A program made the translations under genes and the position numbers. From Branchinecta lynchi (taxonomy: Eukaryota; Arthropoda; Branchiopoda; Anostraca; Branchinectidae), in assembly GCA_023053575.1 (NCBI GenBank), contig JAKZAP010000008.1:1203001-1267000 (forward strand): a stretch of 64,000 bases of DNA, in the 5' to 3' direction. Below are positions 21,650-63,256 of the stretch, piece by piece (positions within the stretch are counted from its first letter, which is position 1; the number at the start of each line of letters is the position of its first letter). The notes beneath the pieces were generated by a model that saw only the letters and a program-made list of their open reading frames with translations, was not told the DNA's origin and searched no databases.

Positions 21650-21838
21650 GGATTTACACACTGCGTAAAATCCGAGCGTATTTTACGCACGTTTTGAGCT
21701 TGAAAAGATTTCTAGCAATACGGACGTATTAGAGAAATCGGTCCGTTTTGTATTTAAATACGTCCGTATTAGAAATCTTTTCAAGCTCAAAACGTGCGTA
21801 AAATACGCTCGGATTTTACGCAGTGTGTAAATGGACCA
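21650..21838. mobile_element. Palindromic MITE with ~80-bp inverted arms
   Basis: Arms GGATTTACACACTGCGTAAA..TTTTGAGCTTGAAAAG and complement are nearly perfect and separated by a short A/T-rich centre with CGGACGTATT. No coding sequence. The exact ends and target duplication are unclear. Confidence 0.7.
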
Positions 21839-21910
21839 TTAAGGTTAGGTGAGTGAAAAGGCGCAATGCAGCTGACAACAGGGTTGCAGCATGTTCAAAG
21901 TTTGACTTAC

Positions 21911-22208
21911 CATTTTGCTTCACCTTCAAAAACAGCTCAGGTGCATTACTCTCTCGAACGTTTCGTATCAAGACCACCACCTGGTCATGCGTTAGTGGAC
22001 CGACTTCCCTTCCATTTATCTGCACCAGCTGATCTCCTTCATTTAATCGGGGGAAGCACCGATCAGCAGGGGCATTAGGAACTACTCGAGAAACAAGAAC
22101 GGGCTGTCGTTGATCTACGCCTCCTTTAACGTTGAAACCGAACCGTCCGTTTTCATCCGGTCTGAGTCGGATGAGAACGGTGCCTTCATCACTGCAGACG
22201 CTACCAGT
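21911..22208 (-). CDS. PTPN3/4-like: PTPN3/PTPN4-like phosphatase, PDZ domain exon
   Basis: Minus-strand exon of 298 bp between an acceptor (CAATTCATTTCAG) and a GTAAGT donor. Ninety-nine whole codons plus one base encode a complete PDZ domain: VLIRLRPDENGRFGFNVKGG holds the carboxylate-binding loop in the form GFNV, followed by PVLVSRVVP, the ADRC..LNEGDQLVQING turn, the THDQVVVLIR helix and ELFLKV strand. In this family the PDZ binds C-terminal peptides of membrane proteins and lies between an N-terminal FERM domain and the C-terminal phosphatase. The exon joins 26841-27015 and 14902-15180 in phase. Confidence 0.95.
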
Positions 22209-23034
22209 CTGAAATGAATTGAGGATTGTTTTAAGAATTTACCACAGATGTCTTCACTTACTAAAGGAAGTGTTTGTTGTTGTTGAAGTTTTGTTTCGAG
22301 GGTTATTAGTCCCTCACAGGTGAGCCTCTGGGCATTGAAGATTCCAATTTGTTTCTAATAAACCCTTCATTCATTCAAAAAAAAAAGAATAACAATAATA
22401 ATTTATTTATGACCTAGCATACTCACAAGACGGGGTATAAATATAAAAAAGAGGAAAAAGTAATATGTAGAAAGACACACACCATAATAATGAACCAAAA
22501 AATAAAAAAGAACAACAACAACAGAACAAGAACTAGGACAAACAAGTGCGCAAGCGCTCAGACGTGGAGTGTAAAAGTAAAATGTTTATCACATTTATAT
22601 ACGAACAGCTTTAGAACCAAGACATTTCTCTTCCCCAATAACCAAACAAGTATTGAAATATCCCTGTAATCACCCCCCTTTAAAAGCTTTAAATGTAACA
22701 AACCACCAGTATAAATCCAAAGAAATGTTGAAGATGTTACGAATAGCATTTGTTCGAACACTGAATGGTCTGCCTGCCAGTCCCACCCTTTTAACCTTGT
22801 CCATTAGCAAGGTAATAACAAGTGCAATAAACCAATTCGTAGCAAACTAATTCCCCCTTTGTCACAATTCATTAAGAACGGCATATCATCGATCATATGA
22901 CAAAACAGTCCAGTTTCCGACTGTTCATTAAAGATTAACGTCGTCTTATTTGTTGATGCTACACCAAATCCTCATCCATCGATATATCTCCCCAAATATA
23001 CAAGAGTTGGACTTTAGACCTGTCACGAACTAAA

Positions 23035-25462: not shown

Positions 25463-26380
25463 ATTACAGTTCGAATTTCCCAAAGAAAAAAAAAATCAGG
25501 TAGTATGAACTAACTCTCGCTAAGTCTTTCTACTGTTTAAAACAAGACCAAAGGTGTCGATGGGTTCCCAAAAATCTAATATTTTATCCAGACAATTGTG
25601 TCTTGTATTCGCCAGATCCAGTCTTCACCAGGCTAATCATCAGAGAAACCCAAGTTCAGATATACCTCTATAAGACCCCCAAATATAGGGCTACAGAGAC
25701 CATCTACGAACTCGACGTTACCCTTGATCCCTATAAAGAACATCTAATCAACTTTAAATAAAACTTCGACTTTAACATATTTTCCGGCTTTGGTCGGCTT
25801 ACAGGCGAACAGTTGTCCGGAGAGAAATCGGGTTCAGCATGCCTTCTTGCCCCTAAATCAAACATTTAATCAACTTCAAATGAAACTGTTACTTCGAACC
25901 AACTTTCCGGTGTTGGCCGGATTCCGGACAAACTGTTTGGCCGGCGAGAAAATGATTTTCACCATCATGCTCAGCATGTCTTCTTACCCCTAAATCGAAC
26001 ATTTAATCAACTTCAAATGATACTTTTACTTTTAACAAACTTTCCGATCTTTGTCGGATTCCGGACGAACTACTTGTCCGGCGAGAAAATGGTTTTAACC
26101 ATCGTGCTCAGCATGTCTTTTTACCCCTGAATCAAATATTCAATCAACTTCAAATGAAACTTTTACTTTTAACCAAATTTTCGCTTTTTGCCCGATTCCG
26201 GACGAACTACTTGTCAGGCGAGAAAATGGTTTTAACCATCGTGCTCAGCATGTCTTTTTACCTCATAATCGACTATCACATTAGCTGTTTAAAAATATTT
26301 TAATTTGTCCCTTAATCTGAACCCCCTCCCCAATTTATTCAAACAATGTTTACACGGATACGTCAGCTCTGATTTTTCAT

Positions 26381-33785: not shown

Positions 33786-35065
33786 CAAGACCAAAGGTGT
33801 CGATGGGATCCCAAAAATCTAAGATTTGATCCAGACAACTGGGTCTTGTCTTAGCCAGATCCAGTCTTCGCCAGACTCTTTGAACATTTTTACAATTAAA
33901 ATTCAGAAACAGATTAAGGCCAAATAGCTAATCACCTGAGAAAACCAAGTTCAGATTTGGATTCAGCATGTGTGTTTACCCCTATAAGTCATATCTGTTA
34001 TGACGAAAACTTCCTGCCACTTCTGCCAATTTCCCGGTTCCGGCCGAACTCCAGAACTACTTGTCCGGCGAAAAAAGAAAGCTCAAAGACGAAATCAGGG
34101 TATCTTCTTTCCCCAGTAATGAACATCTAATCAACTTCAAATAGAAATTTAGCTTATAACAAATTTTCCGATTCCAGCCGGAATTCCGGTCGAACTATAT
34201 GTCCGGGTAAAATACGATTGTCACACAGGGACTCAGCATCTCTTCTTACCCCTAAATCGCCTATCTAATCAACTAGAAATAAAACTTTGACTTCCAACAG
34301 TTTTCCGGTTTTTTCCGGATTCCGGACGAACTACATGTCCGGGTAGAAACTTGTTTTCACATAAGTGTTCAGCATGTCTTCTTGCCCTAAATCGAACATC
34401 TAATCAGCTCCAAATTTGACAAACTTTCCGGTTTGGGCCGGATTCCGGTCGAAATACTTGTCCGTCGAGAAAATAGTTTTCACCATCTTCTTCAGCATGT
34501 CTTCCTACCCCTAAATCGAACATCTAATCAATTTCAAATAAAACTTTTACTTTCAACAAACTTTCCGGTTTGGACCGGATTCCGGGCGAAATACTTGTCC
34601 GTCGAGAAAATAATTTTGACCATCGTCTTCAGCATGTCTTCCTACCCCTAAATCGAACATCTAATCAACTTCAAATAAAACTTTTACTTTCAACAAACTT
34701 TCCGGTTTTGGCCGGATTCCGGGCGAACTACTTGTCCGTTGACAAAATGGTTTTCACTATCGTGTTCAGCATGTCTTCTTACCCCATAATCGACTATCAC
34801 ATTAGCTGTTTCAAAATATTTTGTTTGTCCCTTAATTTGAATCCCCTCCCCCACCCCTAAATGTAGAGCTACAAAGCCCATCTACGAACTTGACTGGTCC
34901 GACGACCCAACGAACCCTCACACCAAGTTTCATCAAAATATCTCATTCCCTTCGAGAGTTATCGTGCTTACAGACGGACGGACAGACGGACGGACGGACG
35001 GACGGACAGACGGACAACTTTTGCGATGTCATAGGTATCCCTCCACTTACGTTTTGGGATCCCAA
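33786..35065 (+). mobile_element. Helentron/DINE-like element inserted in a LINE, copy 6
   Basis: Starts CAAGACCAAAGGTGTCGATG, ends ACGTTTTGGGATCCCAAAA. Core units recur with periods of 137-138 bp (TTTCCGGTTTGG at about 34424, 34561 and 34699), followed by an A/T-rich block, CCCCTCCCCCACCCC and a (GGAC)n tract near 34975-35015. Because it disrupts a known coding frame, both ends are well defined: insertion is between A-rich bases with little or no target duplication. Confidence 0.8.
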
Positions 35066-37984
35066 AAAGACGCTGATTTAACGAGTGACATATCTTCCAA
35101 GGCATTACAAAGACTAGTAAAGGGTCTTGATCTACACGACGTATGGGAGGAAAGAAAGGGAACGAAAGATTACACAAGGGTAAACTGGAAAGGGAAGGGG
35201 GGAGGCTCCCGACTTGACAGAATGTATGCAGCAAAAGAACCGATGTCCATGGTGACCGAAATTCAACACCTATACACACCACTATCTGATCACTTCGCAG
35301 TGGTTCTTAGTTTTAAAGAAGGCGAACAAATAGAAAGAAGAATTACAAAAAAGACTATATGGAAAATGAATACAAATGTCCTAAAGAATGAAGAAATGCG
35401 TAAAGTTATATCAGGCCTTGTGGAAGAGATGAAATTATTACCAAATGAAGATATAGTATCGTTCTGGGAAATAACAGCGAAAAGGAAAATAACGGAAAAT
35501 GCAAAAACGATATCGAAAGATCTATATGGGATGGAGAAAAAACACTTGGAGCACCTTCACAAGGTGCTTTACGCCCTGAAACACGAAATAAACAACGGCA
35601 AGGAAGTAAATAAAGAGTTTTTTGAAGTACAGAATGAGATCAAGCAAATAAATGAAAAAATAGCAAGTGGAATCAAGGTAAGAACGAAACTTGACCAGTT
35701 AATTCAAAACGAACAGTTAACAACGACGATTATTTGTAAAGAAAAGAAGAAAATGAAAGCAGCCAGTATATCTAGGGTCAGAACAAAATCAGGAAGGTAC
35801 GTTACAGGGAAAGAAGAGATACTGCAGGAAGCCCGATCATTTTTTCAAGAGGTTTTACAGAAAGAACAGGAGGAAACGACGGAAGACGTAGAAAAGCTCG
35901 AAGATTTTCTATCGAATATTTGCATTAATAAAGTCACTAACGAGCAAAACAGAACGCTATGTAGAAACATCCAACCTGAAGAAGTATTGAATGCTATAAA
36001 TCAGACCCACAATGGGAAGTCGCCAGGACTCGACGGAATCCCTTACGAGCTATTAAAAGACCCACTTTTCAAGCCAGGTTTTGCAGTAGTCCTGAGTTCA
36101 CTATTTAACGCGGTGCTCTGCCAGAAAGGTGAGATGAACACGACAGGAGTTATAAAACTCATTCCCAAAAAAGGGGACCTAGAAAATTTAAATAACTGGA
36201 GGCCTGTAACGCTAACGCAATGCGACTACAGGCTTCTCTCTAAAGTGCTATCGAACCGACTAAAGGAAGTATTGCCAACAATCCTTAGCAAAAACCACAG
36301 AGGAGGAGTCGATAAAAGAAAAACATCGGACATCCTTAACTGCATACGTGATCTACTTCTATATCTACAAAAAAAGAAAGGGAAAAAGAACCTTCGAATG
36401 AGATTATCAGCATTTGACATACAAAAAGCGTTTGACAGAATCAGGAGAGTCCTGCTGTTCATCGTCATGGAATTCTACGGCTTTGACCACAAATTTACAG
36501 AGTGGATAAAGATATTATACACCAACCCAACTCTAGTCATAGCAATTTCGGGAGTAATCTCGGAAACATTCACAGCAGCTACAGGTCTACGGCAAGGGTG
36601 CCCTTTAAGCTTATTACTTTTCGAGCTATATTTTGACCCTCTCCTAAAATATCTAGAAAAAGAACTCAGAGGAATTAAAATGATAGACGAAACTTTGAAG
36701 GTCAAAGGTTTCGTTGATGACTTAAGCACTTTCACCGTTGACGATAGTGACCATCAAAATGCAATTCTAGGCGCTGCGAAATACTGCGAAACCTATAAGC
36801 TAAAACTGAACGGTGACAAATGTGAAGTTCTGCTTTTGACAGAGGAAGAACACAGCATCAAAGCACCGAGCTTACACGGGCTACGAATATCACAAGAAAT
36901 TAGGATACTTGGTGTCTGGTTTTCGAAAACATGGCAGAAGACGGAAGCGCAAAACTGGCAGAAAGTTACGACCAATCTAATTGCTTCAGTACAGTATGGG
37001 CAAAACCGGAAACTGACGATTTTCCAAAAATCTCAGTACATTAACCAATACTGTCTTCCGCTCGTATGGTATTTTTCCAATATATCCCAAATGACAAAAA
37101 CAACAAGGAAGAAAATAGAAAAGATCTTATATGGTTTTCTATGGCAAGGTAAGTACCCACCAAAACTTAAGATGAGCGACTCGTACCTATGCAAAGAAGA
37201 AGGCGGTTTGCAAGTCACCCACCTTCAATCCAAAGCTGAAGAGATGTTTGTAAGAGCGCTAGCCGAAGGAATCATGGGCAGAGAAAGGTCAGTGCTAATG
37301 TCATGGAAGCTGGATCCAAGAAAATGTCCTCAGCAACTCAAGAAAGGTTTTGCAAAGATAAAAGAAATTGAAGAAAAAGGTTTAATAAATTTCCAAACAA
37401 AAATAATAGCAAAGGAAGAACTGAAAATATATTATAAAGAAAGCATGGATGTACCCCAGATAAAAATCGTGACTGATGGCCAAACAACAATAGAAGAGCT
37501 TGCGATAACAGCACGGCTACTACACTCGTCTATGTTAAAGCCAAGAGTGAAAGAGCATATGCTCTATCAAATTCATAATATTCTTCCCACTGAAGAAAGG
37601 AAACACAGAATCTCGCCTACATCAACACAAGGGAGGTGCACATTTTGCGGTGAAATTGAAACAATAAGACATTTCGTGATAGAGTGCAAGGCGAAGGAGA
37701 AAACAGTGGGAGAATTAGAAACTCTTTTAAGAAAGATAAACAGATATAGCCAAGAATGGAAGATTGATAAACAGATTTTCTACAAGGATATTGTTAAAGG
37801 TAAGATAACACCTGAGAACAGGACGACAGCTTTTTTAATAGGAACATTTTGTTATTACAGTTGGAAAGGAAGAGGTAAAGAGGATAGTCTAGAAAAAATT
37901 ATGATGATGGTTAGGACAGAATGGGAGAGTTTAAAAAAAATTAAGAGTGAGAAAAGAAGAGTAGAAACATATTTTTTAGTATAA
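35066..37984 (+). pseudogene. Tx1/L1-like LINE ORF2, rest of endonuclease and reverse transcriptase
   Basis: A frame open for about 970 codons to TAA at 37982-37984. In order: the end of the endonuclease (DRMYAA, LSDHFAVV with the catalytic His), a Lys-rich coiled segment, reverse transcriptase with LIPKKGDLENLNNWRPV, AFDIQKAFDRI (first catalytic Asp near 36417), GLRQGCPLS and FVDD (near 36712-36722, in place of the usual YADD), and a C-terminal zinc-finger CTFCGE..RHFVIEC. The IPKKGD..NWRP and NRL signatures point to the L1/Tx1 group. The frame is intact apart from the insertion, so the insertion is recent relative to decay of the LINE. The first residues of the longest open frame come from the inserted element. 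Confidence 0.9.
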
Positions 37985-54423: not shown

Positions 54424-55785
54424 AACAAGACCAAAGGTTTCGATGGGATCCCAAAAATTCAATATTTGATCCAGACAATTGGGTCTTCTCTTCGCTAGAC
54501 TCCTTGAACATATTTACTATTAAAAGTCAGAAACAGGTTAAGGCCAAAAAGCTGATCATCTGAGAAAACCAAGTTTAGATATGGATTCAGCATGTTTGTG
54601 TTTACCCCTGTAAGTCATATCTGTTTTGACAAAAACTTCCTGCCTTACTTCTGCCAATTTCCCGGTTTCGGCCGAATTCCGGAACCGCCTGTCCAGCAAA
54701 AAAAAAAAGCTAAAAAACGAACTCAGCTTATCTTCTTTCCCCTATATCGAACATCTAATCAACTTCAAATTAAAATTTAACTTATAAAAAGTTTTCCGGT
54801 TCCAGCCGGATTCCGGGCGAACTATATGTCCAATAAAAAAACGATTGTCATACACGGATTCAGCATCTCTTCTTACCCCTAAATCGGATGTCTAATCAAC
54901 TACAGATATTTGTAACAATTTTTCCGGTTTTGGCCGGATTTCGCACCAAATACTTGCCCGGCGAGAAAATGGTTTTCACCATTGTGTTCAGCATGTCTTC
55001 CTACCCCTAAACCCAACATCTAATCAACTTCAAATTAAAATTTAACTTATAACAAATTTTCCGGTTCCAGCCGGATTCCGGGCGAACTGTATGTCCGGGT
55101 AAAAAATGATTGTCATACACGGATTAAGCATCTCTTCTAACCCCTAAATCGGATATCTAATCAACTACAAATACTTTTAACAATTTTCCGGTTTTGGCCG
55201 GATTCCGAGCGAACTAATTGCCCGGCGAGAAAATGGTTTTCACCATCGTGTTCAGCACCCCTAAACCGAACATCTAATCAACTTCAAATAAAACGTTTAC
55301 TTTTAACAGACTTTCCGGTTTGTGCCGGATTCCGGGCTAACTACTTGTCCGGCGAAACGTGTTCACCATCGTGTTCAGCATGTCTTCTTACCCCTAAATC
55401 GAGCATCCAATCAACTTCAAATAAAACTTTTACTTTTAACAAACTTTCCGGTTTGGCCGGATTCCGGGCGAAATACTCGTCCGGCGAGAAAAATGGTTTT
55501 CACCATCATGTTCAGCATGTCTTCTTACCTCATAATCGACTGTCTCATTAGCTGTTTAAAAATATTTTGCTTGACCTTTAATTTAAACCCCCTCCCCCAC
55601 CCCTAAATATAGGGCTACAAAGCCTATCAACAAACTCGACCTTACCCTTGACCCAACGAACCCCTACACCAAGTTTCATCAAAAAATCTCATTCCCTTCG
55701 CGAGGTATCGTGCTTACAGACGGACGGACGGACAACTTTGGCAATGTCCTAGGTATCCCTCCACTTACGTTCTGGGATCCCAAAA
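54424..55785 (+). mobile_element. Helentron/DINE-like element, copy 9, longest core
   Basis: Starts AACAAGACCAAAGGTTTCGA; ends ACGTTCTGGGATCCCAAAA. At least six core units, of two alternating types (one with GGGTAAAAAATGATTGTCATA, the other with GGCGAGAAAATGGTTTTCAC), show that copy number of the core varies between elements. Confidence 0.75.
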
Positions 55786-56075: not shown

Positions 56076-57065
56076 AATGAAGTAAACAATCAAAAACGAA
56101 ATGTAGGAGCTAAGTCCATGCTGGCCAAGATTTGCTGTGGATTACAGTGATTTTGTCCCAACAGTGATATTTTTTATGATCGAACTAGCCCCCGGACATT
56201 TCAACAGATGTCCCGCATCTGGTTTCAACATATGGAAAGGGCCTGCACTACTGATAGAATAGAAAGATATAGCCTATATTTTAGTGATGCACTTAAAACT
56301 GCATACGGTATGGTAAAAGGTAAATTACAGTAAACCAAGCAATTTCTCTGCTGCACTCCAGCCCTCTTCTTCTACTTCTGTTACATCTGAAGAAATATTC
56401 AAGTTCTGGGAGCTGTTCAAGCACTTCTACTTCTGTTACATCTGCAGGAATATTCAAGTTCTGGGAGCTGTCCAAGCACAGACTAAGTATAGAAATTGCA
56501 TTTATTTTTATTTTTTTAGTTTTGAATCTGAGTTCGGGGTTCTTTTCTAAGATAGGATCCCAAAGCTCCAGAAACTGAATATGTGTGCTGCCACAAATCT
56601 ATGATTTTAGGATATGCTTTCTCTTAAATTAGGATACGCCCCAAGGTATGAGCACTGGTGCTCAAGGTTGGGGCACAATGACTTAGAAAAAGAGCATGCC
56701 AAATGAATGATATACCCAGTATATGATATGGGACATACAAAATCAAGTTTTTTTGCAGACTGGTAGGTTATTGTGCCCTTGCTCCGCCATAACAGTGCTC
56801 ATATCATGGCGCATCATCCCCAAAAACTGTAGATATGCTTCTTAAAACTCTAACTGTAGAATTTATTGACAATTTGACTGAAATCCACAGAACAATCATT
56901 CAAAATTAATTTTAGTCAATAGTGCTAGCCAGCACAGGTTAAAGGAGTAGGCAGAGGCTATTTGAAGCTGATGGTAAACCCCAATTTGCCTATGATCATG
57001 CATCTGTGGCAGATAGACCACCCCAGTCATTCTCGGGCATTCAACGAGAGAAGGTCACTAAAATC
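56076..57065. other. Unassigned sequence upstream of the two-ORF LINE
   Basis: Contains a 55-bp tandem duplication (56368-56480, CTACTTCTGTTACATCTG units). An inverted pair of GTGCTCA..TGGGGCACAA / TTGTGCCC..GAGCAC type lies around 56645-56810. The LINE's true 5' end may lie here. Confidence 0.45.
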
Positions 57066-57178
57066 GTGCTGTGTAAAACTTGTTTGACGGGTTCTCGTCA
57101 GGAAATTAGACATTATCGAGTTTGCAGTGCTGTGTAAAACCTGTTTGCGTCAGGAAATTAGACATTATCGAGCTTGCG
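57066..57178 (+). promoter_or_regulatory. Tandem 5' repeats in front of LINE ORF1
   Basis: GTGCTGTGTAAAAC.TGTTTG and GTCAGGAAATTAGACATTA occur twice, 61 bp apart, the second copy shorter by 9 bp and running straight into the ORF1 ATG. Repeated 5' UTR units act as promoters in some LINEs; here that role is inferred. Alternatively the duplication arose by template switching during insertion. Confidence 0.5.
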
Positions 57179-58198
57179 ATGTCCTACAGTATTAATGACG
57201 TTGCGTTTGGCAAATTCTACGGCTATCCTTTATGGCCAGTCCGAGTAGTTGGTATAACTGCATCGAAGAAGGGGAAATCTTATCAAGTATTTTGCTATGG
57301 ATCACACGAAAAAGCATCACTGAGTGAGGGATTCATTCTGCCTTTCCAAGAGAACTTCGCCGAAGCTTCAAAGAAAAAAACAAAAGGAGTTCAAGGTGCA
57401 TTCACTGAACTTGCCACATTCCCAGATGTGTATCAAGAAATAATGGGAATCGCTGGTGCTGCCTCGACAAGCAGTGTATCTTCACTCTCGTCTACCCTTG
57501 TAAACGCGCAGAGCGAAATTGCCAAATTGAAGGAAAATCTTCGTCAGGATATTCACAAACAGGTGATTGAGAAATGTGCAGGGGACAAAAGCGTGATCAA
57601 TGAACAAGCAATTAACACTATTGTCTCTCAGATATATGATGCGATCAGCCTCGACTACAGTGCAAAATTTGCAAGCGTGGAAAAAATGCTCAAGGGGTTT
57701 CACGCTCAAATTACGGCGCTGGAAAACCGCATCGAGAGTCTGGAATACCGCAACGACGATTTGGAACAGGAAAGAAGATCGAATGTTCTTCTAGTCCACG
57801 GACTGTCTCAGATAGGTGGAGAAACGCTGCCCAATAGCGTCCTAGAGCTCTTCAGTACTAAGATGGGGATCAGTATGCTTGCTGCTGATATCAAGTCAAC
57901 TGAGCGCTTACGCACTCGAGTTAGTCAAGCGGATACTCTTCTCCCGCCTGTTCTTGTCACTTTTCATTCATCCGATTGTGCAAAACTCGTGTTCACGAAC
58001 AAGAAGAAACTGGCCCGATCGAAAGTATTCATATCTGAATATTTAACGCCAAAGCGTAAACAACTGCTGAATATGGCACGTGACAAATTTGGAGTTAGGA
58101 ATGTGTGGACTGATGGTGGCCGCATTCTAGCCAAACCGGAAAACAGCTCAGCCATCTTGAAAATTAGGTCACTGAATGACTTGATCAGTGAACAGTAA
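57179..58198 (+). CDS. LINE ORF1 protein with N-terminal PWWP domain
   Basis: A 339-codon frame from the first ATG (57179) to TAA. Residues about 5-80 fit a PWWP domain: VAFGKFYGYPLWPVRV holds the signature as PLWP, followed by YQVFCYGSHEKASL and an aromatic helix end, as in HDGF/LEDGF-type chromatin readers that bind methylated histone H3 tails. A Ser-rich linker follows (about 92-108), then a coiled coil with heptads to about 200 (LENRIESLEYRNDDLEQE), an RRM-like segment (RSNVLLVHGL.. to FHSSDCAKLVF, about 200-275) and a basic C-terminal part (LTPKRKQLL). The last two parts are typical of LINE ORF1 RNA-binding proteins. The gap to ORF2 is 155 bp. The PWWP part is unusual for ORF1. Confidence 0.88.
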   Translation: MSYSINDVAFGKFYGYPLWPVRVVGITASKKGKSYQVFCYGSHEKASLSEGFILPFQENFAEASKKKTKGVQGAFTELATFPDVYQEIMGIAGAASTSSVSSLSSTLVNAQSEIAKLKENLRQDIHKQVIEKCAGDKSVINEQAINTIVSQIYDAISLDYSAKFASVEKMLKGFHAQITALENRIESLEYRNDDLEQERRSNVLLVHGLSQIGGETLPNSVLELFSTKMGISMLAADIKSTERLRTRVSQADTLLPPVLVTFHSSDCAKLVFTNKKKLARSKVFISEYLTPKRKQLLNMARDKFGVRNVWTDGGRILAKPENSSAILKIRSLNDLISEQ

Positions 58199-58353
58199 AC
58201 CATTTTAATGATACGTTGAGTTCATCTTCATTTTTTTTCGCTTATTTGGAATTGTCGGTTTTGTTTCCTTAATTTTTTGTCCTTAATTTTTCTGTTTGTT
58301 TCGTGCTTGAGATATCAAAGAGTTCTCATTCTTGAGTGTATTAGAGTGTTATC

Positions 58354-61300
58354 ATGAATAGTTCGACCAGCAGACTCTCAGATTTAGAAAGTAATCGGCT
58401 GTCTGTTGACCAGTTCTTATCTACCCCCATTGCAAACGATAATTTAAGTGAAGGAAATAATACACAAGCTATGAAAGCAAGTAATTATGTTGATAATCAG
58501 TCGCTGAAGAAATGGTCAGGCAAAGATGATATTGTTTTTGCATTTTGGAACTGCCAAGGCCTTAGAACAGCGTACCCTACCCTGTGTAACATATTAAGTG
58601 ATATGCAAGAAACACCGTTAGTAATAGGGCTATGTGAGACGTTTGTGTCGAATAGGGATAATTTTTCAGCGTGGGATTTCCAGTTTCCAGGATATGTCAG
58701 TGAAAGAAAAGAACGACAGGTTATGGAGCGAGGCGGTTTGGCTTTATTGGTAAAGGAAGGAGTTTCATATTGGGTAAGGGAGGATCTCTCGCTGTGGCTT
58801 GAAGGAAGGCTTGAGACTCTTTTTATTGAAATAGAAGATAAATCTGATAAAAATATAGTTGTTGGTTTAGTATATAAAACACCGTCATATAATGAGGAAA
58901 CTTTTATTGAGGAGATGGAGACTTTAATGGAGAAATTGAATAATGATCATAAATATAAAGTAGTTATGGGGGATTTCAATATTGACCTCCTTAAAAGTTC
59001 AAGCCGTCAAGATTTTCTTAATTCAATGATTTCTTCTTACCAATACCCCCTGGTAACTATTCCTACACGAGTGACTGATAAGTCTGCGACGCTGATCGAT
59101 AATATATTTGTGGATGGAAAGCTGCTTGAATGTTCATATGCTGATGTTTTACTTACGGATGGATCTGACCATTTTTTTCTTCTTAGTAAAATAAAAAAAT
59201 CTTACAGGATTATAAATAAGGATGATCAAATAAATAAAACATTCTTTCGTGATTTAAGAAAAGATAATTTGAAAAAATTTGAGAAAGAAATGGGTGACAC
59301 AGATTTTACTCCGGTATTTGAAGAAGACAACCCGTCGGTTGCGTATGATATTTTTGTCGCTATGTTTACAAAGGTGTTGAATGAGACGTGCCCTCTTAGG
59401 AGACTTAAAAGGGGTAGTACGAAATTCCCAAAGAAACCATGGATTACTCAGGGTATTCTAAATTCTATAAGTCGGAAAAATGAACTGTATAAAATATACT
59501 TAGGTGAACCATCTGTCATTAATTTTCAGCAATTTAAAAATTACCGGAATACTTTAAACAGATTGAAACGGAAAGCTGAAAAAATGTATTTGCAAGATGA
59601 ATTTATGAAGCATAAATGTGATATGAAAAAAACATGGAAAACGGTAAATTCACTCCTGGGACAAAAGGGTAAAATAGAAGTTATTAATAAATTAGAAACA
59701 GAGAGGGGGAATTTGACCACCCCAAAGGATGTCGCAAATTATTTATGTGAATATTTTTCTAGTGAGGGCGCGAAACTATGTGATGATGCTCGGAAAAGAA
59801 TTAACCGGGCTCCCAAAATAGTTCAGCCAGAAGTTCCAGTAGATTGTCAGTTGGTTTTTAATGCTTGCGATACAAATGAAGTTGGAAAAATTATCAGTGG
59901 AATGCAATCAAATTCAAGTGGTGTAGATGGGATTTATCTTAAGATTGCTAAATCAGTTAAACCAGTTATAACACCAATTTTATCTAAATTGATTAATAAA
60001 TCCATGGAAAAAGGGATTTTCCCAGAAGGTTTGAAGGTCGCTAAAATAATACCATTGCATAAAGGAGGTAAGAGAGATGACCCTTCAAACAAAAGACCCA
60101 TTTCTATCCTCCCTTTTTTTTCAAAAATATATGAAAAGGTGATAGGATCCAGGCTAACTGATTACGTTGAAAATAATAAAATTCTTATAAATACTCAGTT
60201 TGGTTTCAGGAAAAAAATGTCAACTGAGATGGCGACTATTAAACTTGTTGACTGGGTAAATACGGCGTTTGAAGCGGGTCTGATTCCAGCTGCTTTATTC
60301 CTGGATTTGAAGAAGGCGTTTGACACGATTGACCATAAACAGTTATTACTTGAGCTGGAAAAAATCGGTGTGACTGGAAAGAGTTTGTCATGGTTTGAAT
60401 CTTATTTGAGTGACCGGAAGCAAATTGTGATGAATGGGTGTTTTACTTCTGTTGCTAGTGAGATAACTTGCGGAGTTCCCCAGGGGTCTATACTAGGTCC
60501 CCTTTTATTTTTAATTTTTATAGATCGGATTAAGTATTATTTGTCAGAGGCTGGTATAATCCTTTTTGCAGACGATACTCTTTTACTTGTAGCTGCTCCA
60601 TCAGCTGATCTACTTTTTGATAAAATGAGAAAAGCATTGACCGAGTTCGTTGAGTGGGCAGATTTCAATCTTTTGACATTAAATTATACCAAAACTAATT
60701 ACATTTTATTTTCTCGGATATCTAGTATTGACACTAATTTAGAATTAATAGTAAACGGAAATCAAATAAAAAGAGTAAAGGTAACAAAGTACCTGGGTTT
60801 TATGATTGATGAAAATCTATCATGGAAAACACATTCAAATATTATAGCTTCAAAATTGTCTAGGACCCTGGGAGTGCTTCGCCGAGTTAAAAACCTAGTC
60901 TCACAGAAAATTCTTCGATTGCTTTATTTCGCTATTTTTTACCCGTACATTTGCTATGGTTGCTCTATATGGGCAAGTAATTTTGTGTCATGTTATAAAA
61001 AAATCCAAAAAATCCAAAATAAAGCCGTTAAAATTTTGTCACCTAAAACTTTAGTTACTCCTAATATTAATGAACTTTACATTAAGAATCAACTACTTGA
61101 TATTTCAAAAACTAGAGATTATCAAGTTAGTATTTTCACATATAAATTTCTCAATAATATACTTCCCTCCTCTTTTGAAAATTTTTTCTCCATTAATAGT
61201 GATCTCCATAGTCATGATACACGAGGGGCATCAAATGTGGTACACCCATTTAGAAACACGACTAGAGCTTCTTTCGTGATTAGAAATTTTGCCCCCTCTG

Positions 61301-61392
61301 TATGGGATATAATTCCAGTTGAAATTAGAAACTCGAGTCATCTGGCATCCTTCAAGGCTACAGCGAAGAGATTTTTCCTTGCAAAAGAATAG
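58354..61392 (+). CDS. LINE ORF2: APE endonuclease and reverse transcriptase
   Basis: An uninterrupted 1012-codon frame. The endonuclease spans about 60-300: FAFWNCQGLR (Asn66), LCETFV (Glu95), VVMGDFNID, TLIDNIF and SDHFFLL keep the metal-binding and catalytic residues. The reverse transcriptase spans about 545-830: KIIPLHKGG, RPISILP, ALFLDLKKAFDTIDH (Asp651), GVPQGSILGPLLF and LFADDT (Asp740-Asp741). The C-terminus has VWDIIPVEIRNSSHLASFK. These signatures place it in the CR1/Jockey group (possibly Daphne- or Crack-like). There is no RNase H or zinc finger that I can see. With ORF1 upstream in the same direction, no stops, and intact catalytic residues, this copy may be mobile. It makes the target nick and copies its RNA into DNA there. 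Confidence 0.95.
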   Translation: MNSSTSRLSDLESNRLSVDQFLSTPIANDNLSEGNNTQAMKASNYVDNQSLKKWSGKDDIVFAFWNCQGLRTAYPTLCNILSDMQETPLVIGLCETFVSNRDNFSAWDFQFPGYVSERKERQVMERGGLALLVKEGVSYWVREDLSLWLEGRLETLFIEIEDKSDKNIVVGLVYKTPSYNEETFIEEMETLMEKLNNDHKYKVVMGDFNIDLLKSSSRQDFLNSMISSYQYPLVTIPTRVTDKSATLIDNIFVDGKLLECSYADVLLTDGSDHFFLLSKIKKSYRIINKDDQINKTFFRDLRKDNLKKFEKEMGDTDFTPVFEEDNPSVAYDIFVAMFTKVLNETCPLRRLKRGSTKFPKKPWITQGILNSISRKNELYKIYLGEPSVINFQQFKNYRNTLNRLKRKAEKMYLQDEFMKHKCDMKKTWKTVNSLLGQKGKIEVINKLETERGNLTTPKDVANYLCEYFSSEGAKLCDDARKRINRAPKIVQPEVPVDCQLVFNACDTNEVGKIISGMQSNSSGVDGIYLKIAKSVKPVITPILSKLINKSMEKGIFPEGLKVAKIIPLHKGGKRDDPSNKRPISILPFFSKIYEKVIGSRLTDYVENNKILINTQFGFRKKMSTEMATIKLVDWVNTAFEAGLIPAALFLDLKKAFDTIDHKQLLLELEKIGVTGKSLSWFESYLSDRKQIVMNGCFTSVASEITCGVPQGSILGPLLFLIFIDRIKYYLSEAGIILFADDTLLLVAAPSADLLFDKMRKALTEFVEWADFNLLTLNYTKTNYILFSRISSIDTNLELIVNGNQIKRVKVTKYLGFMIDENLSWKTHSNIIASKLSRTLGVLRRVKNLVSQKILRLLYFAIFYPYICYGCSIWASNFVSCYKKIQKIQNKAVKILSPKTLVTPNINELYIKNQLLDISKTRDYQVSIFTYKFLNNILPSSFENFFSINSDLHSHDTRGASNVVHPFRNTTRASFVIRNFAPSVWDIIPVEIRNSSHLASFKATAKRFFLAKE

Positions 61393-61615
61393 TAATTGAT
61401 GCGTGAGTGTTTTTTGTAAGCAGAATGTTTGTTGTATATGTGTGAACCGTGTATGAATGGCATTTAGAATAATGTAAAAATAATGTTACCACATTATGTA
61501 GAATAGAGAAGACTGCCACCTGCGGCCAACAAACCCTCTGGGGCTTTCTTAGCAGGTGCTGTAAAATGTTTTGTATACATGTGTAAAATAAAATTTAATC
61601 TAATCTAATCTAATC
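61393..61615 (+). mobile_element. LINE 3' UTR with (TAATC)n tail
   Basis: A short 3' UTR with GCCACCTGCGG..CTCTGGGGCTTTCTTAGCAGG, a possible hairpin, ends in AAATAAAATT and four TAATC units (61596-61615). Tails of short simple repeats are typical of CR1-type LINEs instead of poly(A). No target duplication could be matched. Confidence 0.8.
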
Positions 61616-62483: not shown

Positions 62484-63256
62484 CAGTCATGCACAAATCC
62501 TCAATTTTTGGGCATGGTGCCCCAACGTCTGGGCATGCCCGAACGTATGGGCATGGTACCCATACGTTGGAGCACCATGCTCTGGAGCATGGGCATGGTA
62601 CCCCTGTGAAATTTGGATAAACTGAGACTGGTTACATACCTAAATAGGGCCTTCTCCCTGTCCTAGATCAAAAGATACCTGATTTTACTTTCTATTCAAC
62701 CTCATTTTCCAATTTACAAAATGTTAGAGCACTTCCAAGATACATAGAGTTTTTTGGAGGCCACTTCTCTTCCAGTGGGCTTATCCTATCCTTTTCCAGA
62801 AAATTGCTGCTAGGTAGCATGGATGAGGCAAGCTTTTCAATCTGTTCACTGGAGCAAATATTTCCTTTAGATTGTTTGCCTTTTCTTGTATTTATTTTGA
62901 GTTATTTTTTTTTTACCTGTTTTACTCTGACTTTTGACTTTTTGACAACATGGAAAAGGATTGAGTAACCTAGTGGCAACTACCTGTAAAAGGATAGGGT
63001 AAACCCACTGGGAAAGAAGTGGCCTCCACAAAACTCTCTGTATCTTGAAAATGCTCTAACATTTTGGAAATTGGAAAATGAGGTTGGATAGACAGTGAAA
63101 TCAGGTATCTTTTGTCAGTTTAGCCAAATTTCACAGGGGTACCATGCCCATACTCCAGGGCATGGTGCCGTAACGTATGGGCACCATGCCCATACGTCCA
63201 GGCATGCCCGAACGTTGGGGCACCATGCCCAAAAATTGAGGATTTGTGTATGACTG
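62484..63256. mobile_element. hAT-like foldback element with ~300-bp arms
   Basis: Ends CAGTCATGCACAAATCC and GGATTTGTGTATGACTG with a perfect 8-bp duplication GTATTGTG (62476-62483 and 63257-63264). The arms are inverted over about 300 bp, including GGCATGGTGCC, GAACGTATGGGCATGG and ATACCTGATTTTACTTTCTA, around a loop of about 140 bp. There is no transposase frame. Confidence 0.88.

Follow-up and report, generated by a model that had tools for sequence, protein, structure and literature searches.

An intact LINE in Branchinecta lynchi with a PWWP domain of the HDGF/LEDGF class on its ORF1 protein

The element and its ORF1

We analysed a window of 64,000 nucleotides from the anostracan Branchinecta lynchi (assembly GCA_023053575.1, contig JAKZAP010000008.1, positions 1,203,001 to 1,267,000 of the forward strand; all positions below are those of the window), which contains a long interspersed nuclear element (LINE) with a PWWP domain at the N-terminus of the protein from its first open reading frame (ORF1). 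A sequence-only reading of the window had noticed an intact two-ORF LINE with a PWWP-like ORF1 N-terminus, and both the position of ORF1 and the nature of its N-terminus hold: the reading frames of ORF1 (57179-58198, 339 aa) and ORF2 (58354-61392, 1012 aa) are open, and residues 1-90 of ORF1 match the Pfam PWWP family PF00855 with 33.3 bits against a curated cut-off of 25.6 (30 bits for the whole ORF1). The element comprises the following features:

57024..61615, + strand: full-length LINE (non-long-terminal-repeat retrotransposon), about 4.59 kb, with a near-identical copy on contig C1 and shared 5' starts
57024..57178, + strand: 5' untranslated region (UTR) in which a degenerate GTGCTGTGTAAAAC...GACATTATCGAG unit occurs twice (about 57066-57126 and about 57127-57178), read from the sequence
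57179..58198, + strand: ORF1, 339 aa, consisting of PWWP, coiled coil, a fold like the RNA recognition motif (RRM) and a C-terminal domain (CTD)
57197..57397, + strand: PWWP domain, residues 7-73 of ORF1 (structural match about 1-89)
57473..57775, + strand: predicted coiled coil, residues 99-199 (model helices H99-133 and H142-199)
57785..58186, + strand: RRM-like fold and CTD, residues 203-336
58354..61392, + strand: ORF2, 1012 aa, endonuclease and reverse transcriptase
58543..59172, + strand: APE-type endonuclease domain, ORF2 residues 64-273 (PF03372, E = 2.6e-10)
60070..60807, + strand: reverse transcriptase domain, ORF2 residues 573-818 (PF00078, E = 7.7e-32)
61596..61615, + strand: 3' microsatellite tail (TAATC)4, read from the sequence; a similar tail ends the C1 copy

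The profile match is accompanied by a predicted fold of a five-stranded barrel with C-terminal helices, as is typical of PWWP domains, so that the search and the structure prediction suggested by the sequence-only reading point the same way. By sequence and by fold the domain is nearest to HDGF and LEDGF, and it is a genuine member of this class. The remainder of the protein has the coiled coil, RRM and CTD of a Type II ORF1, similar to the ORF1p of L1. No PHD zinc finger was matched by ORF1 among the Pfam families up to an E-value of 10, which places the protein outside the PHD-type ORF1s (Type IIC/III).

Endonuclease and reverse transcriptase domains in ORF2, dispersed copies, common 5' ends and the (TAATC)n tail identify the element as an APE-type LINE. 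The C1 copy (L031) is 99.94% identical to the window LINE across 4,593 bp (2 mismatches and 1 gap), and the proteins of both its ORFs are identical to those of the window LINE. Because this copy is near-identical and its flanks are different, the LINE was copied very recently on the evolutionary scale. The alignments of six copies other than the window LINE (L001 and L003-L007; L001 and L031 are one and the same C1 copy) start at window positions 57023-57025. The fold of the 3' UTR was not significant (z = -1.17; 26 of 200 shuffles folded equally well or better). Several LINE 5' ends have tandemly repeated starts, composed of ATTCTCGGTCACTCAACGAGAG units in L007 and of GATTCAGTTCTC units in L027, L028 and L030, and a single GATTCAGTTCTC-type unit is present at the 5' end of L029. 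These tandem starts look as if reverse transcription had been restarted or multiple start sites were in use.

Distribution and conservation of the PWWP-ORF1 fusion

The same fusion was found to be numerous and conserved in the B. lynchi genome (576 Mb in 216 contigs), and relatives are present in the databases, in agreement with what the sequence-only reading had proposed to look for. Searches of the genome gave at least 134 match rows for ORF1 and at least 132 matches for PF00855, both being lower bounds as the best candidates alone were scored. The PF00855 matches are all above the curated cut-off and 88 of them fall within open frames 330-999 aa long; they include a few host genes, and the status of LINE ORF1 was established for a subset. 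Sixty-six ORF1 matches span from within residue 7 to at least residue 329, and 60 of these are free of stops. The structure is copied on many contigs, with an ORF2 relative downstream on the same strand of PWWP-ORF1 in 20 of 20 representative loci, and in half of these (10/20) ORF2 is a single open frame of at least 1,000 aa.

All 13 subfamily representatives possess the PWWP domain, with pairwise PWWP identities of 30-68%, and were retrieved with a PWWP-bearing ORF1 as the query, so that relatives lacking the domain could escape. A search of the genome with PF25298 gave 26 matches, all at or beside the places of the two subfamilies nearest to the window LINE, and was too insensitive for PWWP-less sister ORF1s. 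Two more PWWP-ORF1 frames, L053 and the clearly divergent L052, were identified among the extra PWWP matches. L052 (G000:C2:5483900-5485500) has the motifs KLWP and CCYG, and a Glu replaces the conserved His; eight open frames between 339 and 407 aa that score similarly for PWWP presumably belong to the same subfamily.

Outside this genome, 14 database relatives have the PWWP region (P0003-P0016), and 13 of them are unnamed. The named one, P0014, is the 200-aa 'PC4 and SFRS1-interacting protein-like' of Artemia franciscana, which is 75% identical to another short relative (P0016) and is probably a decaying LINE fragment misannotated as LEDGF. Some invertebrate proteins annotated as LEDGF/PSIP1-like may hence be fragments of LINE ORF1, and such annotations call for caution. 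The host genome also has a long PWWP-bearing frame (L051), which we take to resemble ZMYND8. In a scan of viral contigs 29 stretches fitted a pattern, none of which codes for a relative.

The PWWP domain is under purifying selection. Since synonymous divergence (dS) is saturated in many pairs between subfamilies, the ratio of nonsynonymous (dN) to synonymous divergence, omega, was taken from seven within-subfamily pairs alone, and amounts to 0.24 for PWWP, against 0.36 for the coiled coil with its linker and 0.35 for RRM plus CTD. The PWWP changes in these pairs are 19.5 synonymous and 15.5 nonsynonymous (binomial P = 5.8e-5). Between subfamilies the PWWP dN is 0.25-0.64, and its dS exceeds 1.2 or has reached saturation in the eight pairs computed. 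The mean pairwise identity of the 13 representatives is 0.445 for PWWP, 0.358 for the coiled coil and 0.426 for RRM and CTD; the loci L003, L006 and L010 yielded no frame and were omitted from the alignment. As the best-conserved part of ORF1 with a low omega, the domain most likely serves a function and is not a passenger, as judged from these sequence comparisons.

ORF1 seems to have been exchanged among these lineages as well. In the tree of ORF2s, which holds those of this genome only, L046 (G000:C20:12167000-12174700) groups with L034 and L035 with starred support, and its ORF2 is 81% identical to that of L034 in protein and 83% in DNA over 3,023 bp. The ORF1 of L046 is only 40% identical to that of L034 and 48% (PWWP 64%) to that of L048, whose ORF2 shares 39% with L046; the ORF1 trees that bear on the exchange have weak support. 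L046 is best read as a mosaic in which ORF1 was replaced by recombination among PWWP-bearing lineages, consistent with the reticulate evolution of ORF1 described in LINEs of the Jockey superfamily (excerpt of PMC4120745).

Elsewhere in the window, a second LINE-like reverse transcriptase frame occupies 34841-37984 on the + strand (1047 aa from stop to stop), with ACAGACGGACGG-type tandem repeats on its 5' side. Tandem arrays of a unit of about 137 bp, with similar consensus units, are located at 25827-26262, 34419-34793 and 54723-55529. Just downstream of the LINE, a foldback at 62484-63256 has inverted arms of 142 nt (92%) and 147 nt (88%), and is possibly a small non-autonomous transposon. 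A host PDZ exon was recognised at 21819-22238 on the - strand (PF00595, E = 4.1e-15), which resembles PTPN3/PTPN4. Scans of the whole window gave 0 hits with Rfam at the gathering threshold and 0 with ARAGORN.

The aromatic cage and a possible role of the domain

The aromatic cage of LEDGF is made up of M15, Y18, W21 and F44, flanked by H48 and E49 (excerpt of PMC3663649), and that of HDGF2 of Y18, W21 and F44 (excerpt of PMC3119473). The residues of ORF1 were assigned to the cage positions by a HMMER alignment to HDGF:

57215..57217, + strand: F13, at the LEDGF M15 cage position; Phe in 29/29, with the Met of HDGF aligned here
57224..57226, + strand: Y16, at the LEDGF Y18 cage position; Tyr in 26/29, Phe in 3/29
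57233..57235, + strand: W19, at the LEDGF W21 cage position; Trp in 29/29
57293..57295, + strand: C39, at the LEDGF F44 cage position, non-aromatic; Cys in 27/29, Ala in 1, Trp in 1

The 29 sequences are the 13 subfamily representatives (chosen copies), 14 database proteins (P0003-P0016), L052 and L053; P0001 and P0002, without the N-terminal part, stand outside this set, and P0017-P0019 were omitted from the alignments. The database proteins were located by a motif that demands aromatics at positions 13, 16 and 19, by which 0 rows were lost. Three of the four cage positions are aromatic in 29/29, and one aromatic sits at the M15 position in place of the F44 wall. Moreover, H43 is kept in 27/29 and residue 44 is Asp or Glu in 25/29. 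The host frame L051, used for comparison and not counted, has Phe at the F44 position. In terms of the aromatic cage that the sequence-only reading had thought of, three positions are aromatic and the F44 position is mostly Cys. In Drosophila JASPer, mutation of the cage residues Y23 and W26 abolishes the H3K36me3-specific binding (excerpt of PMC6877644), and the equivalent Tyr and Trp are retained in the window ORF1. The arrangement of Phe, Tyr and Trp with Cys may represent either a functional variant of the cage or a pocket of different preference.

We consider the chances about even that, in this intact and recent LINE, the HDGF/LEDGF-class PWWP on ORF1 tethers the RNA-protein particle to nucleosomes, probably those with H3K36 methylation in transcribed genes. 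ORF1, the predicted RNA-packaging protein, would form a trimer, as suggested by the match to the L1-like fold, and would display three PWWP heads per complex. Such multivalent heads may make up for the low affinity of one PWWP, which in LEDGF binds the H3K36me3 peptide with a dissociation constant of 17 mM (excerpt of PMC3663649). The methyl-lysine would be held by the cage of F13, Y16 and W19, with Cys at the LEDGF F44 position, and the nucleosomal DNA by basic residues of the PWWP. In a particle tethered in this manner, ORF2 would nick DNA near the bound nucleosomes with its endonuclease and copy into it. Gene bodies with H3K36 methylation are suggested by the membership of the PWWP in the HDGF class; LEDGF and JASPer read H3K36me (excerpts of PMC3663649 and PMC6877644). 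The domain would likely guide new copies to particular chromatin, and probably to active genes. In its widest form this is a tentative proposal, which we hold with somewhat less than even confidence: a large LINE group that counts at least 13 subfamilies here and has a relative in brine shrimp may have captured an HDGF/LEDGF-type PWWP and reshaped its cage, the three heads per trimer reading H3K36 methylation and steering insertion into transcribed gene bodies as a built-in LEDGF.

Several observations weigh against the proposed tethering to H3K36-methylated nucleosomes. In 27/29 sequences Cys stands where the cage of LEDGF and HDGF2 has its classical third aromatic, F44, and the LEDGF mutants F44A and W21A do not bind at all, for which the authors suspect misfolding (excerpt of PMC3663649). 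No gene was found to surround the window LINE, the PDZ exon being about 35 kb off and on the opposite strand, and no further domains turned up on the - strand between 22.3 and 52.3 kb in Pfam scans with E-values up to 0.1. In addition, ORF2 is broken or partial in the other 10 of the 20 representative loci.

With Cys at the F44 position, the domain could also be a general tether or read another mark. As a general tether, the basic surface of the PWWP would keep the particle on chromatin or aid its nuclear retention without reading H3K36 methylation, which is possible though less likely: F13, Y16 (or Phe) and W19 in 29/29 and H43 in 27/29 are not obviously needed for a pure DNA tether, even though W19 may also serve folding. 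A cage opened or reshaped by Cys might instead read another methyl-lysine mark or a methylated non-histone protein. This seems unlikely when the nearest class by sequence and fold is considered, and LEDGF and JASPer read H3K36me (excerpts of PMC3663649 and PMC6877644), but C39 is near-invariant (27/29), suggesting a selected pocket of its own and not decay, and crystals of the HDGF2 PWWP with peptides of H3K79me3 and H4K20me3 have been obtained (excerpt of PMC3119473).

A passenger PWWP, taken over once from a host and playing no part in mobility, is quite improbable, given its occurrence in 13/13 subfamily representatives at a between-subfamily dS beyond 1.2 or saturated (8 pairs), the lowest omega of the three parts of ORF1 and the highest mean identity. 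An artefact, whether an assembly error that joined a host PWWP gene to a LINE or a match by chance, is hardly conceivable with the same structure on many contigs, ORF2 sequence downstream in all 20 loci and significant E-values; the multiple copies refute it. The steering of insertion by the PWWP is a plausible and testable hypothesis.

Relation to known systems

The fusion of PWWP with ORF1 is real and conserved and, as far as we have searched, undescribed. The choice of insertion sites by LINEs is an old open question, for which the ORF2 endonuclease is the usual suspect, and a conserved and selected PWWP on ORF1 permits a direct test of it. No description of PWWP in a LINE ORF1 was found among the titles and abstract beginnings listed by the literature searches, so that an earlier one may exist elsewhere, for example in preprints, in subscription journals or in Repbase notes. 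The main text of the ORF1 survey PMC4120745 contains PWWP 0 times, against 45 for PHD, and the excerpts of PMC3978060, PMC6877644, PMC11933901, PMC5906684 and PMC11244446 hold no such PWWP-ORF1 fusion.

The steering of retroelement integration machinery by a reader domain is familiar from the LEDGF-directed integration of lentiviruses and from the chromodomain integrases of chromoviruses. In those systems a host cofactor, or the integrase of a long-terminal-repeat element, provides the reader, whereas here it is located on a LINE ORF1, with steering as a proposal only. Human L1 ORF1p is not known to carry a PWWP, and its sequence is 11-12% identical to the window ORF1. The proteins HDGF, HRP-2, HRP3 and LEDGF (PSIP1) share with the window domain the PWWP class, in sequence and fold, and the Tyr, Trp and His of the pocket region, but the window PWWP is fused to a body of the LINE ORF1 type and has Cys at F44 and Phe at M15.

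The nearest precedent is found in LINEs with an N-terminal PHD finger before a Type II ORF1 (coiled coil, RRM and CTD), namely in L2 subgroup 6 and CR1 subgroup 5, where it has been suggested that the PHD may assist targeting in general (Metcalfe and Casane 2014, excerpt of PMC4120745). Both extend an L1-ORF1p-like protein at its N-terminus by a module of the chromatin-reader type; however, the window ORF1 has a PWWP, with another fold and another expected mark, and this domain represents a second type of chromatin-reader module, after PHD, in LINE ORF1 proteins.
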